A stretch of DNA of 40,734 nucleotides from assembly GCA_934565655.1 (NCBI GenBank), contig CAKTIE010000015.1:1-40734 (forward strand). The letters run 5' to 3'. Source of the DNA: an uncultured Oscillospiraceae bacterium (GTDB lineage Bacteria; Bacillota; Clostridia; Oscillospirales; Oscillospiraceae). Both the position numbers and the translations under genes were made by a program. Under the pieces are notes generated by a model. It was not told the DNA's origin and searched no databases. It was given only the letters and a program-made list of their open reading frames with translations. Below, piece by piece: positions 4,852 through 36,852 of the stretch (the first letter of the stretch is position 1; each line of letters starts with the position of its first letter).

Positions 4852-6219
4852 TCACTTTCCCACGCAGAACCGGGAAAAGATGGTGTCCACCAGATCCTCC
4901 CGGATGTGTTTTCCGTTCAATTCGCCCAGAGCCTCCAGCGCGCCCTCGGCGTCCGTCAGCACCACGTCCGGCGTCATGCCGATCCGCAGGGACGCCCGGG
5001 CGTTCTTCACGCAGTTCAGCGCCCGGCCCACCGCGTCGGCCTGGCGGGCGTTGGTCAGCAGCTCGCCCTGGGTCTCCGTTCCGGCGGGAAACTGCTCGCC
5101 GATGGCCTCGCACAGGGCGGCCATGCCCTCGCCGGTCTTGGCGGAGACGGACAGCACATTGTCGAACCGGTCGGCCAGCGCGCCGATGTCCAGCTGCCGG
5201 GGCAGGTCGCTCTTGTTGACCACCACCAGCAGGTGGGGCGCCTTCTCCGCCACGGCCATGGCCGCCTCGTCCTCCGCGTCCAGCGGCGCGGAGCCATCCA
5301 GCAGCAGCAGCGCCAGCGCCGCACGCTCCGCCGCCCTGCGGCTGCGATCCACGCCCAGCTGCTCCACGGCGTCGCCCGTTTCCCGGATGCCCGCCGTGTC
5401 TGTCAGCCGCAGCAGCACATGGCCCAGCAGCAGCTTCTCCTCCACCGTGTCGCGGGTGGTGCCCGCCACGTCGGTGACGATGGCCCGGTCATAGCCCACC
5501 AGCGCGTTCAGCAGCGAGGATTTGCCCACGTTGGGCTTGCCCAGCAGCACCGTGGGAACCCCCTGCTTCATCAGCTGGCCGCGGGAGAAGGTGGCCAGCA
5601 GCTCCGTCAGCTTGTTTTCGCTTTGGCGCAGGGCGTCCAGCAGCTGCTCCCGCTGCAAGTCCTCGATATCCTCGTCGGGATAGTCCACGATGGCGTAGAA
5701 CCGGCTGGTCACGCCCATCAGCGTGTCGTACACCGCCTGGACGCTGCGGCTCAGCACGCCCTCCAGCTGTCCGGCGGCGTTGCGGGCCGTCTCGGCGGTC
5801 TCGGCATCGATGATGTCCGCCACGGCCTCCGCCTGCAAAAGATCCATGCGGCCGTTGAGAAAGGCCCGCTGGGTGAATTCGCCGCCCTTTGCCTGCCGTG
5901 CGCCGTGGCTCAGCAGCAGCTTCAACCCCTCGTTCAGCACCACGGGCGAGCCATGGCAGTGGAGCTCGGCGCAGTCCTCGCCGGTATAGCTGTCGGGGCC
6001 GGGGAACAGCACGCACAGCGCGCTGTCCACCACGCGGCCCTCGCCGTCCAGCACCCGGCCCAGCACCATGGTGCGGGCGGCCTGCTGTGACATGGGCCTG
6101 CCGTTTCGCGGGAAAAACACCGCGTCCAGCACGGTTTTGGTATCCGGGCCGCTGAGCCGCAGGATGCCGATGGCGCTGGGACTTTGCGCCGTAGCGATGG
6201 CGGCGATGGTATCAGACAT
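4852..6219 (-). CDS. mnmE: tRNA uridine-5-carboxymethylaminomethyl(34) synthesis GTPase
   Basis: The 455-aa length matches MnmE exactly. The N-terminal tetrahydrofolate-binding domain starts DTIAAIATAQSPSAIGILRLSG. The inserted G domain shows G1 GKPNVGKSS (227-235), the TT of G2 (254-255), G3 DTAG (274-277) and G4 NKSD (335-338). The protein ends in the invariant C(x)GK motif, FCVGK, with Cys452. With MnmG it modifies the wobble uridine of several tRNAs; mnmG is not in this window. Start at 6219 is preceded by GGGAGGT. In many Firmicutes mnmE lies beside noc, parA and rsmG near oriC; here those genes are nearby but separated. Confidence 0.97.
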   Translation of the reverse strand: MSDTIAAIATAQSPSAIGILRLSGPDTKTVLDAVFFPRNGRPMSQQAARTMVLGRVLDGEGRVVDSALCVLFPGPDSYTGEDCAELHCHGSPVVLNEGLKLLLSHGARQAKGGEFTQRAFLNGRMDLLQAEAVADIIDAETAETARNAAGQLEGVLSRSVQAVYDTLMGVTSRFYAIVDYPDEDIEDLQREQLLDALRQSENKLTELLATFSRGQLMKQGVPTVLLGKPNVGKSSLLNALVGYDRAIVTDVAGTTRDTVEEKLLLGHVLLRLTDTAGIRETGDAVEQLGVDRSRRAAERAALALLLLDGSAPLDAEDEAAMAVAEKAPHLLVVVNKSDLPRQLDIGALADRFDNVLSVSAKTGEGMAALCEAIGEQFPAGTETQGELLTNARQADAVGRALNCVKNARASLRIGMTPDVVLTDAEGALEALGELNGKHIREDLVDTIFSRFCVGK

Positions 6220-6258
6220 GGAGACAACCTCCCTTTTGCGCATAGTTTTACAAATAGC

Positions 6259-6287
6259 AGTATACCACAAGTGCCGGTAAAAGAAAA
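6259..6287 (-). promoter_or_regulatory. Candidate extended -10 promoter for mnmE-prmA
   Basis: On the minus strand TGTGGTATACT gives an extended -10 about 40 bp upstream of the mnmE start. The -35 region at 17-bp spacing (TTTTCT) is poor, as expected for extended -10 promoters. The same TGTGG-TATAMT context appears before zapA and parA. Confidence 0.45.
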
Positions 6288-6320
6288 GCAGATGTTTCAA
6301 GTGGGAGGTATAAGCAAAAA

Positions 6321-6346
6321 AGAACCGCCCGGGGGCGGTTCTTTTT
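6321..6346. terminator. Intrinsic terminator (bidirectional)
   Basis: A 9-bp stem AGAACCGCC / GGCGGTTCT with a CGGG loop is flanked by A- and T-runs. It lies just after the stop of the 55-aa minus-strand gene and upstream of mnmE, so it should isolate mnmE from its neighbour. Confidence 0.9.
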
Positions 6347-6348
6347 CC

Positions 6349-6516
6349 CTATTCCGTTGTCTGAACATAAATCTCTTCACATTCCTGCATGCCCGTTATC
6401 AGCAGCACCTCCGCATGCAGCGCCTTCTGTCTCCAGTCGCCGTCGCTCTCCAGCAGCTCCAGCGCCTGCTCCGTTTTTGCCGCCAGCAGCAGATACATTT
6501 TTTCATAATCCGCCAT
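6349..6516 (-). CDS. Small conserved-looking protein, 55 aa, unknown function
   Basis: The 55-aa protein is mostly acidic and helical (starts MADYEKMYLLLAAKTEQALE, ends in VQTTE). The start at 6516 is supported by AAGGAGG upstream, and the stop runs directly into an intrinsic terminator, so the gene is bounded on both sides. It is divergent from the Cro/C1-type regulator at 6610 and they share a 93-bp control region. Its size and pairing suggest a product controlled by that regulator. I do not recognise the family and assign no function. Confidence 0.75.
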   Translation of the reverse strand: MADYEKMYLLLAAKTEQALELLESDGDWRQKALHAEVLLITGMQECEEIYVQTTE

Positions 6517-6538
6517 TTTTGTCCCTCCTTTTTCTCTA

Positions 6539-6575
6539 TTACATCTGTATTGCAGATAAATTGCAATATCTGTAA
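6539..6575. promoter_or_regulatory. Operator-like inverted repeat in divergent control region
   Basis: TATTGCA (6548-6554) and TGCAATA (6562-6568) form an inverted repeat with a 7-bp spacer. Outer arms TTACA (6539) and TGTAA (6571) extend it. It is centred between the starts of the 55-aa gene and the HTH regulator and is the obvious candidate binding site of that regulator, acting on both genes. Confidence 0.55.
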
Positions 6576-6609
6576 AAGAGATAAAGCATAATACACGCGA
6601 GGTGATCCT

Positions 6610-6825
6610 ATGCTTTATCCCAATATCCGCGCGCTGCGGGAGGACAAAGACCTGCGGCAGCGACAGCTGGCGGAGCTGCTGAATGTCTCGCAGAACACCT
6701 ATTCCCAGTATGAGACCGGCGTTATCGCATTGACGGCGGAGCATCTGGTAAAGCTGGCGGACTTCTATCACGTCAGCGTGGACTATCTGCTGGGCCGCAC
6801 CAAAAACCCGGAAATGAACAAATGA
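6610..6825 (+). CDS. Cro/C1-type helix-turn-helix transcriptional regulator, 71 aa
   Basis: The whole 71-aa protein is a single HTH_3 domain: NIRALREDKDLRQRQLAELL, then NVSQNTYSQYETGV (recognition helix region) and FYHVSVDYLLGRT. Such single-domain XRE proteins are usually local repressors. The start codon follows a GAGGTGATCCT site. The gene is divergent from the 55-aa gene, with a palindrome between them, and ends only about 30 bp before the repeat that contains the tandem element. Nothing links it to the element by sequence. Confidence 0.85.
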   Translation: MLYPNIRALREDKDLRQRQLAELLNVSQNTYSQYETGVIALTAEHLVKLADFYHVSVDYLLGRTKNPEMNK

Positions 6826-6855
6826 CAGGCTCACGGAGGTGCGGTGGACGCATAT

Positions 6856-6914
6856 CAAAGCCTCCCTTGTGTAAAGGGCGGTGGCAACGCGAAGCGTTGA
6901 CGGAGGGATTGTCG
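6856..6914. repeat. Left part of interrupted 124-bp intergenic repeat (family 1), including first 49-bp core
   Basis: CAAAGCCTCC marks the family-1 end seen also at 18376, 20770, 28520 and 36629. From 6866 the sequence is the first of three copies of a 49-bp core (6866-6914, 8638-8686, 10410-10458). Joining 6856-6865 to 10410-10523 regenerates a 124-bp repeat whose first hairpin CCTCCC / GGGAGG is perfectly paired. Confidence 0.8.
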
Positions 6915-7666
6915 GGTTTCCTTCCGGCCCACCGTGTGGGCCGGTCTTTCCCCGCCCGCCGCAGCGGGCGGAACCCCCCGCGCCCGCAGGCGCGTCCCCC
7001 ACTTGCGCCGGGGCGCTTTGCGTCCCCCTGCCCCGGCGGCGGAGAAAACCGGGGCGAAGCCGCCGACGGAAAGCACCACGCAGCACCACGGCGCGGCGGC
7101 CGGGACGGACGGCGCGGCCCATCTCTCGGCGGGCCCGGCTGGGGGCCCCGCCAGCTGGGACGGGAAAAAGGGCGCGGGGACGCCCACAGGCAGGCAAGGG
7201 CTGCCCACCCCCGCAGGGCGGCCCACAGCCAGCCAAGGGCGGCCCCGTCGACCCCCGTGCGCTGGTGGGGGCTGCCGGGCCCCCGGTTTTCGGGCGGCCC
7301 GCGAACCGGGCGGCACAGGCCCGGAACGGCGCGGCCGCACACCCACCAAGCCACCCCAACACCACACGCCACCACGCGGCCAACGCCGGGGCGGGACAAG
7401 CCGCACGATTCGCATAAAGGGCGCGGCAGTCTGGCGCAGTCTGCGTCAGCAGTCTGCGCCAGTCTGACGCGACCGGGCCGCATACCTTTTAAGTCCCGGC
7501 CGCCGTGCCGGGACAAGCGGCCCCGCACCGGGCCCGGCCCGCAAGGGACGGCCCGCGCAGGAGCCGCCAAGATTCGAGGGAGCGCGGCCACCGGACGCCG
7601 CGCCCCCGGAGCACCACCCCAAGGACACCCCCGGCGGGCGGCCACCGGACGCCGCCCGCCCGTCTG
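6915..7666. other. GC-rich hairpin-dense non-coding region of unit 1
   Basis: All six frames stay open for long stretches, but the translations are low-complexity Arg/Pro/Gly/Ala strings without domains, so I treat the region as non-coding. It holds consecutive strong hairpins at its left end: CCGGCCCAC-CGT-GTGGGCCGG, CCGCCCGC-CGCA-GCGGGCGG, GCGCC-CGCA-GGCGC and others. An iteron-like array follows at 7427-7466. It could be a folded RNA or a region acting as DNA, such as an origin of replication or transfer. Confidence 0.55.
7427..7466. repeat. Iteron-like array: four CAGTCTG repeats (unit 1)
   Basis: CAGTCTG occurs at 7427, 7437, 7450 and 7460, two pairs each spaced 10 bp and separated by 13 bp. 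Overlapping inverted repeats are CTGGCGCAG / CTGCGCCAG and GCGTCAG / CTGACGC. Helical-turn spacing is typical of binding sites for a protein that sits on one DNA face, as in origins of replication or transfer. Confidence 0.7.
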
Positions 7667-7927
7667 TCACTTGTCCTCCCGGCCGAGAACATGGACACGC
7701 ACCAGCCGCCGGAGAAGGGTATATGGTTTAATCCCCCATAGCATACAGATATCCACAAGCGCCGCATATTCCTCCTTCCGTAGTTTCGTTGAGACCGTCC
7801 GGAGGTGCTGTTTGTCCCACTTTTCTTGCCGTTTTCGTGCGATTTTCCGCTGTTTCTGCAATGCATCCGAATCCACCGCATCCCCATGCACAGCCCCGGA
7901 TGCACCAGGAAAGCCCGCATTTTCCAC
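7667..7927 (-). CDS. Small putative DNA-binding protein (ribbon-helix-helix / MobC-like C-terminus), unit 1
   Basis: The 86-aa protein (GTG start at 7927) has a basic linker (QKQRKIARKRQEKWDKQ) followed by a segment patterned like ribbon-helix-helix or relaxosome accessory proteins: LRTVSTKLRKEEYAALVDIC, then a short helix pair ending LLRRLVRVHVLG. The start is chosen because AGGGAGGT lies 7 bp upstream; the longer frame runs through the HNH gene's terminator. It is the second gene on the minus strand, after the HNH gene and a terminator-like hairpin, and its 3' end abuts the GC-rich region. I infer that it binds the nearby iterons; the family call is from pattern only. Confidence 0.6.
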   Translation of the reverse strand: MENAGFPGASGAVHGDAVDSDALQKQRKIARKRQEKWDKQHLRTVSTKLRKEEYAALVDICMLWGIKPYTLLRRLVRVHVLGREDK

Positions 7928-7970
7928 GTTTTCCACCTCCCTTCGTACTGGAATCCCCCATGCGCCGAGG

Positions 7971-7992
7971 AAAAAAGGGGCCGCAGCCCCTT
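7971..7992 (-). terminator. Intrinsic terminator after HNH gene, unit 1
   Basis: Read on the minus strand, a stem AAGGGGC / GCCCCTT with a TGCG-type loop ends in six T residues. It falls 3 bp after the HNH stop and before the Shine-Dalgarno of the next gene, so expression of the second gene would need read-through or its own promoter. Confidence 0.75.
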
Positions 7993-7995
7993 CTA

Positions 7996-8346
7996 TCAGC
8001 CGTCCCAGGGGTACCAAACTTCCCCCTGTTCGGCGTAGTAGTCGGCCACATACCGGACGCATTCCAACTCCATGAAGTACATGACTTCCTGCCGTGTCTG
8101 TTCCGGCGTCCATCCCTTTTCGCACCCGGCAGCCGTGGCGTATTCGTCCCCCATGATGGAGCCATGCACCGCCGCATGACACCGCCAACAGAGCGTAATA
8201 AGATTCATGGGATGGTCTGCACCGCCATGGCCACGGGGCTTGATGTGGTGAATCTGCAAGCCCTCTGTGCTGTCACAGACCGCACACCGGAAGCCGTCCC
8301 GTTCGTATACCTGCCGTCTTATTTGCTTTGTGATTCCTGCCGTCAT
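7996..8346 (-). CDS. Small HNH endonuclease, unit 1
   Basis: The 116-aa protein is a compact HNH (beta-beta-alpha metal) nuclease: VYERDGFRCAVCD, LQIHHIKPRGHGG, then NLITLCWRCHAAVHG. Cys21, Cys24, Cys53 and Cys56 form the structural zinc knuckles; His33/His34, Asn48 and His57 are the HNH residues. A short C-terminal tail ends EVWYPWDG. ATG at 8346 is chosen for the AAAGGA upstream; upstream in-frame ATGs have no ribosome site. The family includes phage, homing and restriction nucleases, so the target is unknown. It is the first gene of the unit and has its own terminator. Confidence 0.9.
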   Translation of the reverse strand: MTAGITKQIRRQVYERDGFRCAVCDSTEGLQIHHIKPRGHGGADHPMNLITLCWRCHAAVHGSIMGDEYATAAGCEKGWTPEQTRQEVMYFMELECVRYVADYYAEQGEVWYPWDG

Positions 8347-8520
8347 TTCTGGCACCGTCCTTTCTGCCGCCTTTCCCGCGGCATCTTCCATGGAGCACAC
8401 GAGGGCAAGGCCAACGTGACCGCAGGTCATGCCAGTGCGCACACTGGCAGCCTTGCGCCGTGTGGTACAATGGGAGAGCCGAGGAAAGCGGCACGCACAG
8501 GCTACGAAAGGCACAGCTAT

Positions 8521-8549
8521 ATGATAGCACAGACGTTCGATGAATACAA
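8521..8549 (-). promoter_or_regulatory. Candidate promoter for HNH gene, unit 1
   Basis: On the minus strand TTGTAT and TATCAT are separated by 17 bp. It lies about 175 bp upstream of the chosen HNH start. The leader contains the palindrome GCCAGTGCGCACACTGGC-type motif at 8431-8448. Confidence 0.4.
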
Positions 8550-8686
8550 GAAGCTTGTTCGATTGTACTGGAATGTTTCAAGCTTTCTGGCACATCATCT
8601 TGTGTTCCCTTCCCGCAGGAAATACCATATCATGTTGCTTGTGTAAAGGGCGGTGGCAACGCGAAGCGTTGACGGAGGGATTGTCG

Positions 8687-9438
8687 GGTTTCCTTCCGGC
8701 CCACCGTGTGGGCCGGTCTTTCCCCGCCCGCCGCAGCGGGCGGAACCCCCCGCGCCCGCAGGCGCGTCCCCCACTTGCGCCGGGGCGCTTTGCGTCCCCC
8801 TGCCCCGGCGGCGGAGAAAACCGGGGCGAAGCCGCCGACGGAAAGCACCACGCAGCACCACGGCGCGGCGGCCGGGACGGACGGCGCGGCCCATCTCTCG
8901 GCGGGCCCGGCTGGGGGCCCCGCCAGCTGGGACGGGAAAAAGGGCGCGGGGACGCCCACAGGCAGGCAAGGGCTGCCCACCCCCGCAGGGCGGCCCACAG
9001 CCAGCCAAGGGCGGCCCCGTCGACCCCCGTGCGCTGGTGGGGGCTGCCGGGCCCCCGGTTTTCGGGCGGCCCGCGAACCGGGCGGCACAGGCCCGGAACG
9101 GCGCGGCCGCACACCCACCAAGCCACCCCAACACCACACGCCACCACGCGGCCAACGCCGGGGCGGGACAAGCCGCACGATTCGCATAAAGGGCGCGGCA
9201 GTCTGGCGCAGTCTGCGTCAGCAGTCTGCGCCAGTCTGACGCGACCGGGCCGCATACCTTTTAAGTCCCGGCCGCCGTGCCGGGACAAGCGGCCCCGCAC
9301 CGGGCCCGGCCCGCAAGGGACGGCCCGCGCAGGAGCCGCCAAGATTCGAGGGAGCGCGGCCACCGGACGCCGCGCCCCCGGAGCACCACCCCAAGGACAC
9401 CCCCGGCGGGCGGCCACCGGACGCCGCCCGCCCGTCTG
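8687..9438. other. GC-rich hairpin-dense non-coding region of unit 2
   Basis: Second copy of the region described at 6915-7666, with the same consecutive hairpins and no convincing gene in any frame. Confidence 0.55.
9199..9238. repeat. Iteron-like array: four CAGTCTG repeats (unit 2)
   Basis: CAGTCTG at 9199, 9209, 9222 and 9232, the same 10-13-10 spacing as in unit 1. Confidence 0.7.
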
Positions 9439-9699
9439 TCACTTGTCCTCCCGGCCGAGAACATGGACACGCACCAGCCGCCGGAGAAGGGTATATGGTT
9501 TAATCCCCCATAGCATACAGATATCCACAAGCGCCGCATATTCCTCCTTCCGTAGTTTCGTTGAGACCGTCCGGAGGTGCTGTTTGTCCCACTTTTCTTG
9601 CCGTTTTCGTGCGATTTTCCGCTGTTTCTGCAATGCATCCGAATCCACCGCATCCCCATGCACAGCCCCGGATGCACCAGGAAAGCCCGCATTTTCCAC
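9439..9699 (-). CDS. Small putative DNA-binding protein, unit 2
   Basis: Identical 86-aa product to the unit 1 copy, with the same GTG start, AGGGAGGT ribosome site and position beside the GC-rich region. Two intact copies argue that neither has begun to decay. Confidence 0.6.
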   Translation of the reverse strand: MENAGFPGASGAVHGDAVDSDALQKQRKIARKRQEKWDKQHLRTVSTKLRKEEYAALVDICMLWGIKPYTLLRRLVRVHVLGREDK

Positions 9700-9742
9700 G
9701 TTTTCCACCTCCCTTCGTACTGGAATCCCCCATGCGCCGAGG

Positions 9743-9764
9743 AAAAAAGGGGCCGCAGCCCCTT
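9743..9764 (-). terminator. Intrinsic terminator after HNH gene, unit 2
   Basis: Same stem and T-run as at 7971-7992. Confidence 0.75.
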
Positions 9765-9767
9765 CTA

Positions 9768-10118
9768 TCAGCCGTCCCAGGGGTACCAAACTTCCCCCTG
9801 TTCGGCGTAGTAGTCGGCCACATACCGGACGCATTCCAACTCCATGAAGTACATGACTTCCTGCCGTGTCTGTTCCGGCGTCCATCCCTTTTCGCACCCG
9901 GCAGCCGTGGCGTATTCGTCCCCCATGATGGAGCCATGCACCGCCGCATGACACCGCCAACAGAGCGTAATAAGATTCATGGGATGGTCTGCACCGCCAT
10001 GGCCACGGGGCTTGATGTGGTGAATCTGCAAGCCCTCTGTGCTGTCACAGACCGCACACCGGAAGCCGTCCCGTTCGTATACCTGCCGTCTTATTTGCTT
10101 TGTGATTCCTGCCGTCAT
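9768..10118 (-). CDS. Small HNH endonuclease, unit 2
   Basis: Identical 116-aa product to the unit 1 copy, with all four zinc cysteines and the HNH residues intact. The ribosome site, leader palindrome (10203-10220) and terminator are also duplicated, so both copies should be expressible. Confidence 0.9.
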   Translation of the reverse strand: MTAGITKQIRRQVYERDGFRCAVCDSTEGLQIHHIKPRGHGGADHPMNLITLCWRCHAAVHGSIMGDEYATAAGCEKGWTPEQTRQEVMYFMELECVRYVADYYAEQGEVWYPWDG

Positions 10119-10292
10119 TTCTGGCACCGTCCTTTCTGCCGCCTTTCCCGCGGCATCTTCCATGGAGCACACGAGGGCAAGGCCAACGTGACCGCAGGTC
10201 ATGCCAGTGCGCACACTGGCAGCCTTGCGCCGTGTGGTACAATGGGAGAGCCGAGGAAAGCGGCACGCACAGGCTACGAAAGGCACAGCTAT

Positions 10293-10321
10293 ATGATAGC
10301 ACAGACGTTCGATGAATACAA
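10293..10321 (-). promoter_or_regulatory. Candidate promoter for HNH gene, unit 2
   Basis: Same TTGTAT-N17-TATCAT arrangement as at 8521-8549. Confidence 0.4.
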
Positions 10322-10409
10322 GAAGCTTGTTCGATTGTACTGGAATGTTTCAAGCTTTCTGGCACATCATCTTGTGTTCCCTTCCCGCAGGAAATACCAT
10401 ATCATGTTG

Positions 10410-10523
10410 CTTGTGTAAAGGGAGGTGGCAACGCGAAGCGTTGACGGAGGGATTGTCGTCAGCGGTCAACCCCTCAGTCACGGCATGCGCCGTGACCGCT
10501 CCCCTTACACAGGGGAGCCTTTG
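10410..10523. repeat. Right part of interrupted family-1 repeat, including third 49-bp core
   Basis: The 49-bp core (10410-10458) differs from the other two by a single base (A at 10423). It runs into the normal right half of the repeat: a CAGTCACGGC / GCCGTGACCG hairpin, then TTACACAGGGGAGCCTTTG. A at 10423 is what pairs with the left arm CCTCCC at 6861-6866, so this half looks like the original chromosomal sequence. Confidence 0.8.
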
Positions 10524-10550
10524 TTCCTTTCCCCCCACCCACGCGCAAAA

Positions 10551-10578
10551 AAGAACCGCCCGTCGGCGGTTCTTTTCG
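10551..10578. terminator. Intrinsic terminator after noc
   Basis: A 10-bp stem AAGAACCGCC / GGCGGTTCTT with loop CGTC is preceded by an A-run, which reads as a T-run on the minus strand. It serves noc and separates it from the repeat. Confidence 0.85.
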
Positions 10579-10600
10579 CATATTCTGCAGGCTGCTCCTC

Positions 10601-11413
10601 CTATGCGCGGACGGTGCGGCCTTTGGGGATGCGGATGGTCAGCAGAATCTCGCTGTCGGTGTCCCGGCGGCCCAGATCCGCGTCCACGCCGCTCTGGCGC
10701 ATCATTTGCAGGCTGCGGTCGATGCTGTTGAGGAACAGCCGCACATCCTTGATGATATAGGTGGCGCTGCGCTGGGGCGCGGGCTTCTCGGCCAGCAGAC
10801 GCTCCACATAACCTTCCGTCTGGGCCACGTTCATCCCTCTGGCGGTGATGGCCGCCAGCGCCGCAAGCTGCGCCGCCTCGTCCGGCAGACGCAGCAGCGC
10901 ACGGGCATGGCGCTCCGTCAGGCCGCCCCGGCGCAGGCCCTCCCGCACCGGCTCCGACAGACGCAGCAGCCGCAGCTTATTGGCCACGGCGGACTGGGAC
11001 TTGCCCAGCTTTTCCGCCGCCTGCTCCTGGCTGAGGGAATAGCGGCTGATGAGGCGGGCGATGGCGGCGGCCTCCTCGAAGCAGTCCAGATCCCGGCGCT
11101 GGAGATTTTCGATCAGGGCCAGCATCCCGGCGTCCTGCTCGTCCACCTGCGCCACAAGGCAGGGCACCTCCCGCAGGCCCGCGATGCGGGCGGCCCGCAT
11201 CCGCCGCTCACCGGCGATGAGCTGATAGCCCTCCCCTGTCCGGCGCACCGTCAGGGGCTGCAATATGCCGTAGGCCCGGATGCTGTCGGCCAGTTCACGC
11301 AGCGCCGCCTCGTCAAAGCTGCGGCGGGGCTGCTGGGGATTGGGGGTCAGTTGGGACAGGGATATGTACTGGACACGGGTGGACAAAAACTCACCCTTCC
11401 GGCGGTTTCTCAT
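10601..11413 (-). CDS. noc: ParB-family nucleoid occlusion protein
   Basis: The 270-aa protein has a ParB N-terminal CTPase/nuclease-like domain (ISLSQLTPNPQQPRRSFDEA, then YQLIAGERRMRAARIAGL) and a HTH (LSQEQAAEKLGKSQSAVANK). It is shorter than and distinct from the parB at 31490. Noc binds its own sites and keeps the division septum off the chromosome. I call it Noc rather than a second Spo0J because there is no adjacent parA and it diverges from the parB copy; the basic tail (RIPKGRTVRA) is not decisive. In Bacillus noc lies by rsmG and parAB; here it is about 20 kb from them, which implies local rearrangement. Confidence 0.75.
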   Translation of the reverse strand: MRNRRKGEFLSTRVQYISLSQLTPNPQQPRRSFDEAALRELADSIRAYGILQPLTVRRTGEGYQLIAGERRMRAARIAGLREVPCLVAQVDEQDAGMLALIENLQRRDLDCFEEAAAIARLISRYSLSQEQAAEKLGKSQSAVANKLRLLRLSEPVREGLRRGGLTERHARALLRLPDEAAQLAALAAITARGMNVAQTEGYVERLLAEKPAPQRSATYIIKDVRLFLNSIDRSLQMMRQSGVDADLGRRDTDSEILLTIRIPKGRTVRA

Positions 11414-11508
11414 GGCAGCTCACTCCTTTTTCTCCATTGTACGCCATGTCCCGCGCGGAAGGCGGCGCTTTCCGTCGGAAAGCTGAAAAAAGCCGGAATG
11501 TGCGCCGG

Positions 11509-12258
11509 TCAAAGCGCCTCAAAATGATACCGCGGCTTCCCCACGCTCTTGGTGCCGTACTCGATGGCCGCCGCGGGACAGTAGCAGATGCAGGCCATGC
11601 AGTGGGTACACGCGCCGCCCCACACGGGCCGCCCCGCCTTCATCTGAATGTTGTTGGTGGGACAGCTCTTCGCACAGCGGCCGCAGCCGGTGCAGGCGTC
11701 CCCCGCCCGAAACGGCCCGGCCTTGACGCAGAAGCGGTAAAACACGGGGTTCACCGGGCCGCTCATGATCCGGTCATAGAGGTTGTTCCGGGGCGGAGCA
11801 AAGGGCTGCCCCGCCTGAAGCCGCTGGATGACCGCCGCGATATCCGGCTGGGCACGGGCCACGATCTCCCTGGCCTCCTCCGGGCCGGGAGCGTCAAACA
11901 TGGCGATGTAGTTCTCCGGCATGACGATCTGCGCCGTGCCCATATCCCGCAGGCCCTTGGCGGCGGCAAGCCGCCGGTTGTACTTGGCGGCATTGCCGAT
12001 CTCGCTGCCGCAGTCCATGACGAACCAGATGCGCTCCGCGCCGGACAGCTCCGTCTCCGCAAGCCACCCGGACACCAGCCGGGGTATACGCCAGGCATAC
12101 GTCGGGGTGACCACGATCACGTCACGCCCCGTCTCCAGCGGGGCATGATCCCCCGCCTTGAGCTTTTCGTTCAGATCCACCACGGTCTCCCCCAGGGCCT
12201 CCGCGATCCGCCCCGCCACATACCGGCTGTTGCCGGTTCCGGAAAAACAGAAGATCAT
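11509..12258 (-). CDS. EFR1-type flavodoxin/ferredoxin fusion protein
   Basis: The 249-aa protein has an N-terminal flavodoxin-like domain starting with the FMN-binding FSGTGNSRYVAGRIAE segment. Its C-terminus is a 2[4Fe-4S] ferredoxin with motifs CTGCGRCAKSCP and CTHCMACICYCP, eight cysteines in all. This is the layout of the EFR1 family, an electron carrier presumed cytosolic and common in anaerobes; the partner is unknown. It is transcribed from a strong promoter at 12323-12351 and appears monocistronic; noc follows 95 bp downstream with its own ribosome site. Confidence 0.9.
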   Translation of the reverse strand: MIFCFSGTGNSRYVAGRIAEALGETVVDLNEKLKAGDHAPLETGRDVIVVTPTYAWRIPRLVSGWLAETELSGAERIWFVMDCGSEIGNAAKYNRRLAAAKGLRDMGTAQIVMPENYIAMFDAPGPEEAREIVARAQPDIAAVIQRLQAGQPFAPPRNNLYDRIMSGPVNPVFYRFCVKAGPFRAGDACTGCGRCAKSCPTNNIQMKAGRPVWGGACTHCMACICYCPAAAIEYGTKSVGKPRYHFEAL

Positions 12259-12322
12259 ACGCTATCCCTCCTGAAAAAAATCGGGCCTTCCGCCGGCGGC
12301 AGGCCCCGTTCCTGTGGGAAGC

Positions 12323-12351
12323 ATTATACCACGGATGGGCCTTTTGCGCAA
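12323..12351 (-). promoter_or_regulatory. Promoter of the EFR1-type gene
   Basis: On the minus strand TTGCGC and TATAAT are separated by 17 bp, and TGG before the -10 gives an extended -10. It lies about 65 bp upstream of the start codon. Confidence 0.7.
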
Positions 12352-12368
12352 TTCCGTGGACTACCCTC

Positions 12369-12397
12369 TTGAAAACGGGGCCGATCCATGCTACAAT
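12369..12397 (+). promoter_or_regulatory. Promoter of the 41-aa ORF and methyltransferase
   Basis: TTGAAA and TACAAT are separated by exactly 17 bp, about 90 bp upstream of the 41-aa ORF. It is back-to-back with the promoter at 12323-12351. Confidence 0.7.
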
Positions 12398-12487
12398 CAG
12401 CCCATACACAGCCGCCCTCCGGCGGCTTTCAAACGGCGCAGCGGTTAGCCGCATCTAACCCGCCGCCGGACAAAGGAGGTCTCCCCT

Positions 12488-12613
12488 ATGGACGCCGCTT
12501 CCCTTTCCCTCAGACGCTTTCGCCGGGACTGCCTGCTGGGCGCGCTCAGCGCGCTGCTGATGCTGGCGTGCAGTCTCTGGGCGGGACGCCAAATACGAAA
12601 TACGGAGGAATGA
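12488..12613 (+). CDS. Small membrane peptide, 41 aa, upstream of methyltransferase
   Basis: A strong AAAGGAGGT site lies a few bases before ATG 12488. The peptide has a basic N-terminus (SLRRFRRD) followed by one hydrophobic helix (CLLGALSALLMLACSLWAG) and a short polar tail, so it should be a single-pass inner-membrane peptide. Its stop (12611-12613) is 4 bp before the methyltransferase ATG, and its last codons (GAGGAA) double as that gene's ribosome site, which suggests translational coupling. No family recognised; the basic-hydrophobic start could also be read as a signal anchor. Confidence 0.65.
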   Translation: MDAASLSLRRFRRDCLLGALSALLMLACSLWAGRQIRNTEE

Positions 12614-12617
12614 CGCT

Positions 12618-13406
12618 ATGAACGAGAAGATCACACTCTCCGGCGTACCGGAGACCATGCTGCAGACCGTCTATGCCCGGGCCAGAGAGAGCGCCGGGCG
12701 CGGCGCCATCCGCGACGAAAGGGCCGAGGAATTGATCGCCCGGCTGGACTACGATTTCTCGCTGGCGGAGAAGGATACCGCCATGCGCAGCGGCGTCATC
12801 GCCCGCACCATTGTGCTGGACCGGCTGGTGGGCGCGTGGCTGGCGGCGCATCCCGGCGCGGTGGTGGTCAACATCGCCTGCGGGCTGGATACCCGGTGCT
12901 TCCGGATGGCGGGCTACCGCCGCTGGTACGACCTTGACCTGCCGGAGACCATGGCCGTGCGGGCGCGGCTGCTGCCGGAGGGCGGCGCGGTCTCCCAGCT
13001 CGCCATGTCGGCCATGGACGACTGGGGCGGCTGCATCACGGAGCGTGACGCGCCGGTGCTGGTCGTGATCGAGGGGCTGACCATGTATCTGTCGGAGGCG
13101 GAGGTGAAGCGCATCTTCGCGGTGATCGCCGGGCGGTTCGACAAAGCCACCGTTTTCTGCGAGACCATGAACCCCACGGTGGCAAAGCGCTTTCAGGAGA
13201 AGTCCATCGAGGGCAGCCACGCGAAATTCACCTGGGGCGTCAGGGGCGGCAAAACCCTTGCCGGGCTTCTGCCGGGCTTCCGGTTTGCGGAGGAGCACTG
13301 CCTGACCGAGGGGATGGCGGCCTTCGTCCCGGTCTACCGGCTGCTGGACAAGCTGCCCTTCGTGCGGAACATCTCCAACCGGATCGTCGTTCTTGAACGG
13401 GAGTGA
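12618..13406 (+). CDS. Class I SAM-dependent methyltransferase (leucine carboxyl methyltransferase-like)
   Basis: The 262-aa protein matches the LCM/PF04072 layout: an N-terminal helical part with RSGVIARTIVLDRLV, the SAM-binding motif VVVNIACGLDTRCFRM with a following acidic DLDLPET, and a downstream VIEGLTMYLSEAEV segment. Members methylate small molecules or polyketide-like intermediates; the substrate here is unknown. ATG 12618 is supported by GGAGGAA overlapping the end of the 41-aa ORF. The gene ends at a GC-rich terminator 17 bp after its stop. Confidence 0.8.
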   Translation: MNEKITLSGVPETMLQTVYARARESAGRGAIRDERAEELIARLDYDFSLAEKDTAMRSGVIARTIVLDRLVGAWLAAHPGAVVVNIACGLDTRCFRMAGYRRWYDLDLPETMAVRARLLPEGGAVSQLAMSAMDDWGGCITERDAPVLVVIEGLTMYLSEAEVKRIFAVIAGRFDKATVFCETMNPTVAKRFQEKSIEGSHAKFTWGVRGGKTLAGLLPGFRFAEEHCLTEGMAAFVPVYRLLDKLPFVRNISNRIVVLERE

Positions 13407-18375: not shown

Positions 18376-18525
18376 CAAAGGCTCCCCTGTGTAAGGGGAG
18401 CTGTCAGCCGCAAGGCTGACTGAGGGGTTGACCGGTTTACGACAATCCCTCCGGCGCTTCGCGCCACCTCAGCTGTGCACGCCCCAGTGTGCGCACTGGG
18501 GTGCCTTTACACAAGGGAGGCTTTG
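18376..18525. repeat. Family-1 intergenic repeat (150 bp)
   Basis: The repeat runs from CAAAGGCTCCCC to GGGAGGCTTTG, inverted ends. The left half has hairpins CTCCCC / GGGGAG and TCAGCC-GCAA-GGCTGA. The right half carries an insert with the palindrome CCCCAGTGTGCGCACTGGGG (18482-18501), which also occurs in the copy at 36629. Confidence 0.8.
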
Positions 18526-18548
18526 GTGCCTGCGACAATCCGTTGACA

Positions 18549-20769: not shown

Positions 20770-20893
20770 CAAAGCCTCCCCTGTGTAAGGGGAGGTGTCG
20801 CGGCGTAAGCCGTGACGGAGGGGTTGTCCGTAATCCGACAATCCCCCAGTCAGCCTTGCGGCTGACAGCCCCCTTTACACAAGGGGGCCTTTG
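20770..20893. repeat. Family-1 intergenic repeat, uninterrupted 124-bp copy
   Basis: Ends CAAAGCCTCCCC and GGGGGCCTTTG. Contains hairpins CCTCCCC / GGGGAGG, CGGCGTAAGCCG and GTCAGCC-TTGC-GGCTGAC. Same length and order as the repeat regenerated by joining 6856-6865 to 10410-10523. Confidence 0.85.
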
Positions 20894-28519: not shown

Positions 28520-28634
28520 CAAAGGCCCCCTTGTGTAAAGGGGGCTGTCAGCCGCAAGGCTGACTGGGGGATTGACGGTTTACGCGTCAACCCCTCCGGC
28601 GCTTCGCGCCACCTCCCCTTGCACAGGGGAGGCT
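28520..28634. repeat. Family-1 intergenic repeat
   Basis: Starts CAAAGGCCCCCTTGTG and contains the TCAGCC-GCAA-GGCTGA and GGCGCTTCGCGCC hairpins. The right end, AGGGGAGGCTTA, diverges from the usual CTTTG. Its GGGGAGG (28626-28632) sits 6 bp before an in-frame TTG of the glycosidase gene. Confidence 0.8.
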
Positions 28635-28674
28635 TATATTGCCCCTCACCTACACACTCATTCTTACAATTTCT

Positions 28675-36628: not shown

Positions 36629-36785
36629 AAAAAGCCTCCCTTGTGTAAAGGCACCCCAGTGCGCACACTGGGGCGTGCACAGCTGAGGTGGCACGGCGAA
36701 GCCGTGACGGAGGGATTGTCCATTATCGTTTTATCCCCTCAGTCACCTTCGGTGACAGCTCCCCTTGCAACAAGGGGAGCCTTTG
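36629..36785. repeat. Family-1 intergenic repeat (long form)
   Basis: Starts AAAAAGCCTCCCTTGTG and ends GGGGAGCCTTTG. The left half carries the insert with CCCCAGTGCGCACACTGGGG (36654-36673); in the copy at 18376 the equivalent insert is in the right half. Hairpins GGCGAAGCC and GTCACCTTCGGTGAC are present. Confidence 0.8.
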
Positions 36786-36852
36786 GAATGTCATCCCCCC
36801 CATCCCCCGCATCCCCCCTGCCCCGGAACAAACAACAAGGAGAGAGAAAACA

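Follow-up and report, generated by a model that had tools for sequence, protein, structure and literature searches.

How did two identical 1,772-bp blocks come to lie in tandem inside a repeat of an Oscillospiraceae genome, and what are they? We analyzed the 40,734-nucleotide stretch of DNA that holds them (the window) together with related loci from other genomes. Each block is one copy of a small mobile element with a gene for an HNH nuclease and no recognised transposase, so that the two form a tandem pair (Table 1). Judged by sequence comparison, the relatives of this element in gut bacteria are located at sites that are unrelated to one another, and a long copy of host DNA flanks each of them.

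The units at 6866-8637 and 8638-10409 match at 1,772 of 1,772 bases and are bounded by three 49-bp cores that read C, C, and A in order at base 14, all as reported in a preliminary description of this locus; the copy number of two is that of the assembly, which is a draft sequence. Base 14 is the single difference of the third core (10410-10458), and the identity stops at 10458. When 6856-6865 is joined to 10410-10523, the resulting 124 bp align end to end with the intact repeat at 20770-20893 (80%, 126 columns), which is the empty-site counterpart within the window and supports the earlier view of a mobile element sitting in a pre-existing repeat. Because the other four repeat copies in that alignment have A or G at base 14, never C, the C is probably the derived base and A the original host base, as had also been proposed. 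On the minus strand, the element was inserted directly behind the G at 10410, with its first base at 10409.

Table 1. Features of the tandem element pair and of the interrupted repeat in the window.
Feature	Position	Strand	Remarks
Interrupted 124-bp palindromic repeat, left part	6856..6865	+	alignment to intact repeat
Target-site duplication copy, C allele	6866..6914	-	outer right copy in element orientation
Element copy 1, 1,723 bp	6915..8637	-	left end 8637, right end 6915
Two G+C-rich hairpins near right end of copy 1	6924..6970	-	by eye
Small putative ribbon-helix-helix protein gene, copy 1	7667..7927	-	homologues and motif; GTG start inferred
HNH nuclease gene, copy 1, 131 aa	7996..8391	-	ATG start picked by homology
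LexA (SOS)-type box, copy 1	8527..8538	-	one mismatch to GAACN4GTTC
Left-end hairpin, copy 1	8605..8622	-	
Target-site duplication copy, C allele	8638..8686	-	between the two elements
Element copy 2	8687..10409	-	identical to copy 1
Small putative ribbon-helix-helix protein gene, copy 2	9439..9699	-	identical to copy 1
HNH nuclease gene, copy 2	9768..10163	-	identical to copy 1
LexA (SOS)-type box, copy 2	10299..10310	-	one mismatch to GAACN4GTTC
Left-end hairpin, copy 2	10377..10394	-	
Target-site duplication copy, A allele	10410..10458	-	outer left copy in element orientation
Interrupted 124-bp palindromic repeat, right part	10459..10523	+	alignment to intact repeat

The HNH nuclease encoded by the unit (Pfam PF01844, E = 5.4e-11) had been overlooked in the preliminary description. 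Its residues H48, N63, and H72 and cysteines 36, 39, 68, and 71 are invariant in 34 aligned HNH proteins, and its sequence matches the maturase endonuclease domain 6me0 (E = 3.9e-6). A structure model of usable quality (mean pLDDT 84.1) gave no Foldseek match at E 0.001 or better, with McrA and IscB on top at 0.005-0.006, and the IscB model scored the protein at 54.8 bits against a cut-off of 175. Pfam recognised the HNH domain and nothing else in the ORFs searched, which were those of the HNH and accessory proteins and ten more from the window unit, together with five ORFs each of L020 and L013; in the unit we found neither an integrase nor a relaxase or replication gene, in agreement with the earlier reading. 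With 952 bp, L020 is the smallest element, and HNH is the sole gene recognised by Pfam among its five ORFs searched. The accessory protein is a putative ribbon-helix-helix protein, a name that was chosen from the look of the sequence and from a sub-threshold Pfam match (E = 0.018) of the L018 accessory protein; the one from the window had no Pfam match, and the confidence of its structure model (mean pLDDT 64.9) was too low to use. We also considered a non-coding RNA in the G+C-rich part of the element: 6200-10700 gave no Rfam match up to E = 1, and folding of this region in six elements gave no consistent signal, most values being near 0 and a single one, in the element of the window, reaching z = -5.0.

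Related loci were collected via the HNH gene, so that all 33 elements contain HNH by construction and members lacking it would be missed. Of 46 related Oscillospirales loci, 32 have long direct repeats on either side of HNH (24/36 in the first set and 8/10 further loci), or 33 of 47 including the window. Thirteen of the 14 related loci without repeats lie less than 1 kb from a contig end; L023 had short decayed matches only and L230 no repeat match. Among 43 generic HNH loci used as controls (34 of which had over 1 kb of sequence to the left and to the right) there was a single direct repeat, which in L059 belongs to a larger duplication of paralogues, and among 78 off-element anchors again a single one, inside the L028 element. 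Across the family the repeats measure 31-162 bp, and the copies at one site are identical or nearly so. Their sequence differs at all sites but one pair, L034 and L036, which occupy the same rplL site. Even close relatives, such as L019 and L020 (94-97% alike, in one genome) or L018 and L022 (86% over 865 columns), are at unrelated sites with different repeats. Tandem copies that share a repeat between units are also present in L017 and L019. Because the units differ at 4 of 1,540 positions in L017 and are only about 95% identical in L019, tandem arrays do occur in this element family.

The perfect identity of the two window units in a draft sequence would fit a chance tandem duplication or an assembly artefact without any mobile element. 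We give this account next to no credence, and as a general explanation it is untenable in view of the many unrelated loci at which one copy is found between long repeats of its own, the arrays with sequence differences, and the empty sites described below. Searches of phages and plasmids gave no nucleotide match to the unit, and viral contigs contained no close member (one locus at 29% identity; in another search 71 loci, best E = 2e-13). In 10 element-bearing genomes there are one to three HNH matches each, some of them split or generic. In the open-access literature, judged from titles and abstract openings, we found no description of such an element family.

An empty site could be read for two loci, L017 and L018, using L170 (90% over 922 columns) and L246 (90% over 838 columns), each with one repeat copy. 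At both, the repeat is the host's own sequence and is present as a single copy; three relatives of L009 gave no clean empty site, since two of them aligned to a single side and the third aligned to both but lacked the middle. The single-copy repeats at these empty sites indicate, on the sequence comparison, that the core is a duplicated piece of the target and not an attachment site carried by a circle. The preliminary description had made the 49-bp core the crossover site of such a circle, a role that the site-to-site variation of the repeats and their host origin at L017 and L018 do not support.

More generally, a circular satellite with its own attachment site could have been integrated twice by host recombination, with lineages differing in the attachment site. 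Such a satellite would explain the repeat shared between tandem units in the window, L017, and L019, and it agrees with the L014 contig, which stops at the last base of the right repeat as if at an element-repeat-element junction in that sample. It would also account for L034 and L036, inserted at the same rplL base, where the right-end hairpin of L034 resembles one inside the L036 repeat, and for the several loci whose repeats stop at, or close to, the 3' end of a gene. However, no integrase gene is present, and the repeat differs everywhere except in this pair, also between close relatives, and equals host sequence at the empty sites. We regard the satellite as improbable, and what stands of the attachment-site view is the shared site and the tendency of repeats to end at gene 3' ends. 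Metagenome contigs of 1-2 kb were discarded as a sign of circles; many HNH homologues are found there, but so are many ParB homologues from the same source.

Where a gene is interrupted, the repeat can restore its end, as for ychF (L013), etfA (L021), and rplL (L034). In the seven loci with an identified restored gene, the repeat extends past the gene 3' end by 0, 0, 1, 1, 7, 24, and 51 nt (L021, L223, L003, L034, L013, L002, and L036, respectively), and in L223 and L003 the gene is a tRNA gene, whose 3' end coincides with the repeat edge in the former and precedes it by one base in the latter. The outer repeat edges are thus nearer to gene ends than a random second cut gives, which selection or an attachment-type mechanism could explain. 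Integrase-dependent integrative elements likewise restore the ends of tRNA and ribosomal protein genes by direct repeats with edges often at the gene end; in contrast to them, the present element lacks an integrase, has a repeat that varies between sites instead of a constant attachment site, and is found at unrelated sites in related copies, L034 and L036 sharing theirs.

Some organelle genes are known to host homing cassettes that carry a copied end of the target gene. A free-standing cassette of this kind would fit an HNH nuclease with conserved active-site residues and insertions near gene ends that the repeat restores. Nevertheless, the targets are unrelated rather than cognate alleles only and include positions upstream of genes (L017 and L018) and the palindromic repeat of the window; between the copies of a repeat there is little or no difference, and where a comparison was made they agree with the host. 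We therefore judge a homing cassette very unlikely. The HNH fold is shared with the group II intron endonuclease as well, but the element has no reverse transcriptase in the searched ORFs and no Rfam intron match, and it duplicates its target.

Insertion occurred after a G at 26 of 33 sites, such that the repeat, as measured, ends in G (binomial p = 4e-8). The left end of the element is precise and the right end loose, and the far repeat edge has no strong motif. A left-end hairpin is present in 23/33 elements (shuffled mean 4.2, maximum 10), among which 16 different stem arms occur, and GG[CT]AT in 24/33 (shuffled mean 4.4, maximum 10). The overall hairpin strength of the left ends is modestly above that of shuffled sequences (8.2 versus 6.8, s.d. 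1.6), and the consensus fold of 24 aligned left ends is weak. A perfect LexA-type box was found in 7/32 elements (shuffled mean 0.2, maximum 2), two of these being L019 and L020, copies of one element, and a box with at most one mismatch in 18/32 (shuffled mean 3.9, maximum 9). Terminal inverted repeats are absent, the two ends of an element being no more alike than ends of different elements. A donor piece was sought in the loose right tail and not found; the 19-base tail of L018 is unique in its own genome and absent from three others. By eye, several targets resemble hairpin loops. As a candidate target feature, hairpin loops were rejected: base pairing across the insertion point was no greater at 29 targets than at 1,160 control G positions, and the targets were less structured.

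IS200/IS605 elements are not known to duplicate their target. Our element differs from them, and from those with IscB, in duplicating its target (repeats at 33 loci), in having no Y1 transposase in the unit, and in encoding a 131-aa HNH protein without the other IscB domains, and resembles them in its subterminal hairpin and fixed flanking base. Long variable direct repeats are shared with IS1549 and IS1634, for which a published account, then without a proposed mechanism, gives target duplications of 8 to 514 bp, and a DDE transposase with terminal inverted repeats for the IS1634 family (PMC2266710); in the searched ORFs of the window unit, L020, and L013 we found no DDE transposase, and terminal inverted repeats are lacking. 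An alternative explanation is that the element is non-autonomous, inserted by a host transposase, reverse transcriptase, or recombinase, with another role for the HNH gene. The lack of a known transposase in the searched ORFs, the low copy number, and the collection of loci via HNH speak for it, as do the long variable duplications reported for two IS1634-family insertion sequences (PMC2266710), whereas inverted repeats of the kind used by DDE transposases are missing, and of 24 element-bearing genomes, 12 gave no Y1 transposase, 14 no reverse transcriptase, and 7 neither of the two, absence from draft genomes being a weak sign. We consider host-driven insertion somewhat unlikely.

We favor, with moderate confidence, a small transposable element with an HNH nuclease gene, which inserts mostly after G with a long target duplication, tandem copies arising later by recombination; our confidence is lowered because the set was gathered via HNH and the repeat edges cluster at gene ends. 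We infer that the HNH enzyme may itself be the insertion enzyme. DNA damage would lift LexA repression of the element, and the enzyme would nick one target strand after G, perhaps guided by the left-end hairpin and, where present, the accessory protein. The 3' end at this G could be joined to the left end of the element or prime copying of the element from there; it may pair with the C opposite the G adjoining the resident copy, which would pass on the G requirement. The second strand would be cut 30-160 nt away, the copy would end loosely near the right-end hairpin, and repair of both gaps would leave the long duplication. As a tentative idea that we consider possible, a single small, SOS-switched HNH nuclease would carry out transposition in a new class of bacterial element, nicking after G and cutting the second strand at a distance so that the duplication restores a gene, operon joint, or tRNA.

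To our knowledge, mobile DNA is inserted in bacteria by DDE, tyrosine, serine, HUH, or Cas1 enzymes or by reverse transcription, and an element of about 1 kb with an HNH nuclease as its sole recognised gene would add a new type of insertion. If transposition is indeed largely target-sparing, the long duplication leaves the interrupted gene, operon joint, or tRNA whole, and the sparing of important genes (rplL and tRNA genes) suggests how an element can persist in a dense genome. For genome engineering, its small size could be of interest. In two insertion sequences, long variable duplications were an earlier, unexplained oddity (PMC2266710). Here, they are found at nearly every complete family locus, and at two of these the empty site is clean, so that the question can be put to the test.

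In the window, the favored transposable element would have inserted once into the 124-bp palindromic repeat, followed by an A to C mutation in one duplication and tandem duplication when the two 49-bp repeats recombined. For the second unit, such recombination after a single insertion is a simpler explanation than two integrations. A circle formed by recombination between the two repeats would yield the same tandem product.

The window holds two identical 1,772-bp tandem units, each a 49-bp core plus a 1,723-bp element, and a third core differing at base 14 alone, which confirms the preliminary description. Its claim that they interrupt a 124-bp repeat was also borne out: merging the flanks over a single core yields a 124-bp palindromic repeat that can be aligned over its full length (80%) with the intact copy at 20770-20893. 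Both units carry two minus-strand genes, one for an HNH nuclease of 131 aa (Pfam HNH, E = 5.4e-11) and a second for an 86-aa protein, putatively of ribbon-helix-helix type, followed by ~700 bp of about 70-80% G+C. No gene was recognised in this G+C-rich stretch (ten more ORFs within or overlapping the unit had no Pfam match), and an Rfam search of the unit gave zero matches. The HNH domain comes nearest to IscB and McrA in sequence and fold; Cas5-HNH, Cas9 and a group II maturase endonuclease are more distant.

Features of the window and of loci in other genomes (L-numbers)
Locus	Feature	Position	Remark
Window	unit 1	6866-8637	identical to unit 2 at 1,772/1,772 positions
Window	unit 2	8638-10409	identical to unit 1 at 1,772/1,772 positions
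Window	third 49-bp core	10410-10458	differs from other cores at base 14 only
Window	terminator-like sequences	6314-6363, 10545-10594	82% similar, one each side of tandem pair
Window	palindromic 124-bp repeat family (MITE-like), further copies or pieces	18376-18530, 20770-20893, 28520-28640, 36631-36790	18460-18524 is 98% complementary to 36631-36695 (65 nt)
L017	tandem pair	8504-11648	
L016	composite	9549-12864	
L013	insertion within ychF		
L021	insertion within etfA		
L034, L036	insertion within rplL		
L002	insertion at operon joint		rsmI / methyltransferase gene
L017	insertion upstream of deaminase gene		
L009	insertion in first codons of cell-wall hydrolase		
L003	insertion in tRNA-Leu gene	11111-11199	repeat starts one base past tRNA 3' end
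L223	insertion in tRNA-Thr gene	5438-5513	repeat starts exactly at tRNA 3' end

Homologues of the HNH protein number at least 150. In a one-genome-per-species scan, the best 80 of 90 matches fell into 79 loci; we took as the family the first 36 (L002-L037; E <= 2e-21; labels mostly Oscillospiraceae, Oscillibacter and kin), while the others, whose matches are shorter and at E >= 3e-13, were classed as generic HNH genes. Direct repeats bracketing the HNH gene (score >= 31) were found at 24/36 family loci, each with its own repeat sequence except for the L034/L036 pair, which shares one. Eleven of the 12 repeat-less loci have <600 bp from the HNH match to the contig end, and the twelfth, L023, has short decayed matches only. 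Repeats were likewise present at 8/10 additional loci, the remaining two lying <1 kb from a contig end. As a control, the search was anchored at the HNH match of each of the 43 generic HNH loci and gave one repeat, in L059, where it is part of a larger paralogue duplication and the two flanks are alike too; a second control, at 78 anchors elsewhere in the family loci, gave one, inside the L028 element itself. Repeat length ranged from 31 to 162 bp (median 56.5, n = 32), and the L019 repeat is longer when mismatches are allowed. What was found exceeds the original observation: mobile elements that encode HNH and duplicate long stretches of their target form a family, and searches of an open-access library listed no description of it.

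A match to the HNH protein at E <= 1e-15 occurred in 22/400 sampled genomes of L017's family, and in 7/32 of the genus that holds the window's nearest relatives among those sampled. The HNH motif is present in 33/33 elements by construction, because the loci were collected via HNH; the accessory-protein motif is present in 13/33. The 952-bp element of L020 has HNH as its sole Pfam-recognised gene (five ORFs searched). ORF searches among the long members covered the window unit and L013, whose five ORFs had no Pfam match.

Empty sites were seen in relatives of two loci. When joined with a single copy of the repeat, the L017 flanks aligned uninterrupted with the related genome L170 (90% over 922 columns), and 7/11 related loci aligned the joint in one piece, the rest partially. 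For L018, the joined flanks matched L246 at 90% over 838 columns, with a single copy of the 39-bp repeat at 92%, and the joint was spanned without the element in 9/9 related loci examined, with gaps in several; the L009 flanks gave no clean empty-site result against relatives. Repeat copies within a locus are identical (two in L018, three in L017) and unlike those of the empty relatives, so the repeat belongs to that host lineage. Judged from these alignments, the repeats are host DNA at the testable sites, L017 and L018.

Related elements also occupy unrelated places: L019 and L020 do so within a single Yanshouia hominis genome, and so do L018 and L022, whose right 865 columns are 86% identical. 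The left parts of the latter two, including the accessory gene, do not align, a pattern that by sequence indicates modular exchange. L034 and L036, related elements from different hosts, are inserted at one and the same rplL base; in one of them the repeat contains a palindromic, terminator-like hairpin, which in the other lies at the right end of the element. At the tabulated target loci the repeat rebuilds the interrupted sequence: restored ychF and rplL encode proteins whose terminal domains are complete, and the two tRNA genes are called intact at the right-hand repeat. At seven of these loci the gene 3' end lies inside the repeat, which overshoots it by 0, 0, 1, 1, 7, 24 and 51 nt. Repeat edges are nearer to gene 3' ends than a randomly placed second cut predicts, which selection, an attachment-type step or a gene-end joining step could explain.

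The left end of the elements is precise. G is the last base of the repeat at 26/33 sites (p = 4e-8), and at 31/33 when the element is credited with the bases it shares with the repeat (up to 4 nt), a reassignment biased towards G; the element's first base is then C in 25/33. A GGYA-stem-loop-stem hairpin lies near the start in 23/33 elements, among which 16 different stem arms occur; under the same rule, shuffled ends give a mean of 4.2 and at most 10. General hairpin strength alone is raised only modestly there, and the consensus fold of 24 aligned left ends is weak. Within their first 450 nt, 7/32 elements have a perfect LexA-type box, two of the seven being copies of one element (shuffled mean 0.2), and 18/32 have a box with no more than one mismatch (shuffled mean 3.9); that of the window element has one mismatch. 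The right end has G+C-rich hairpins and no fixed last base, and L018 and L022 share a stretch there and then have different tails. At L020, the element end and repeat start have GGCGGCCTG in common with the L019 element end, possibly a microhomology.

A mechanism has to explain the fixed left end, mostly after G, the loose right end, and the long, variable duplications. All three would follow if the target were nicked after a G, the element joined on or copied by priming from its left end, and the opposite strand cut far away. Each of these steps is our inference, and so is the role given to the HNH enzyme; the chief alternative is that a helper enzyme other than the element's HNH makes the insertion. 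Long repeats at insertions (8-514 bp) are also described for IS1549 and IS1634 in PMC2266710, their mechanism being not known at the time of that paper. That IS family has a DDE transposase and inverted repeats, whereas the HNH elements have no terminal inverted repeats.

Tandem arrays recur elsewhere. L017 has two 1,540-bp units with a common 65-bp repeat; the units differ at four positions, three of them transitions, and none of the four is more than 116 nt beyond that repeat (chance ~4e-5). L019 has two older units, ~95% alike. The window array had been read as a small circle integrated twice, with a crossover inside the first 13 bp of the core, and this interpretation is partly supported. 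Two independent insertions would give varying repeat lengths, so the equal lengths within the window and L017 arrays speak against them and favour recombination between the duplications. The confined crossover agrees with our data: in element orientation the middle core has C at base 14, as in the outer right core, which places the crossover in the last 13 bp of the core, gene conversion afterwards being the alternative.

The composite L016 has two different consecutive repeats left of one element, with one partner directly right of the element and the other 1.5 kb beyond; the element may have moved along with a flanking piece holding promoter-like sequence. The L014 contig breaks off precisely where its right repeat ends, which is what an element-repeat-element junction in the assembly graph would produce, and a second left-end hairpin lies near the right end.
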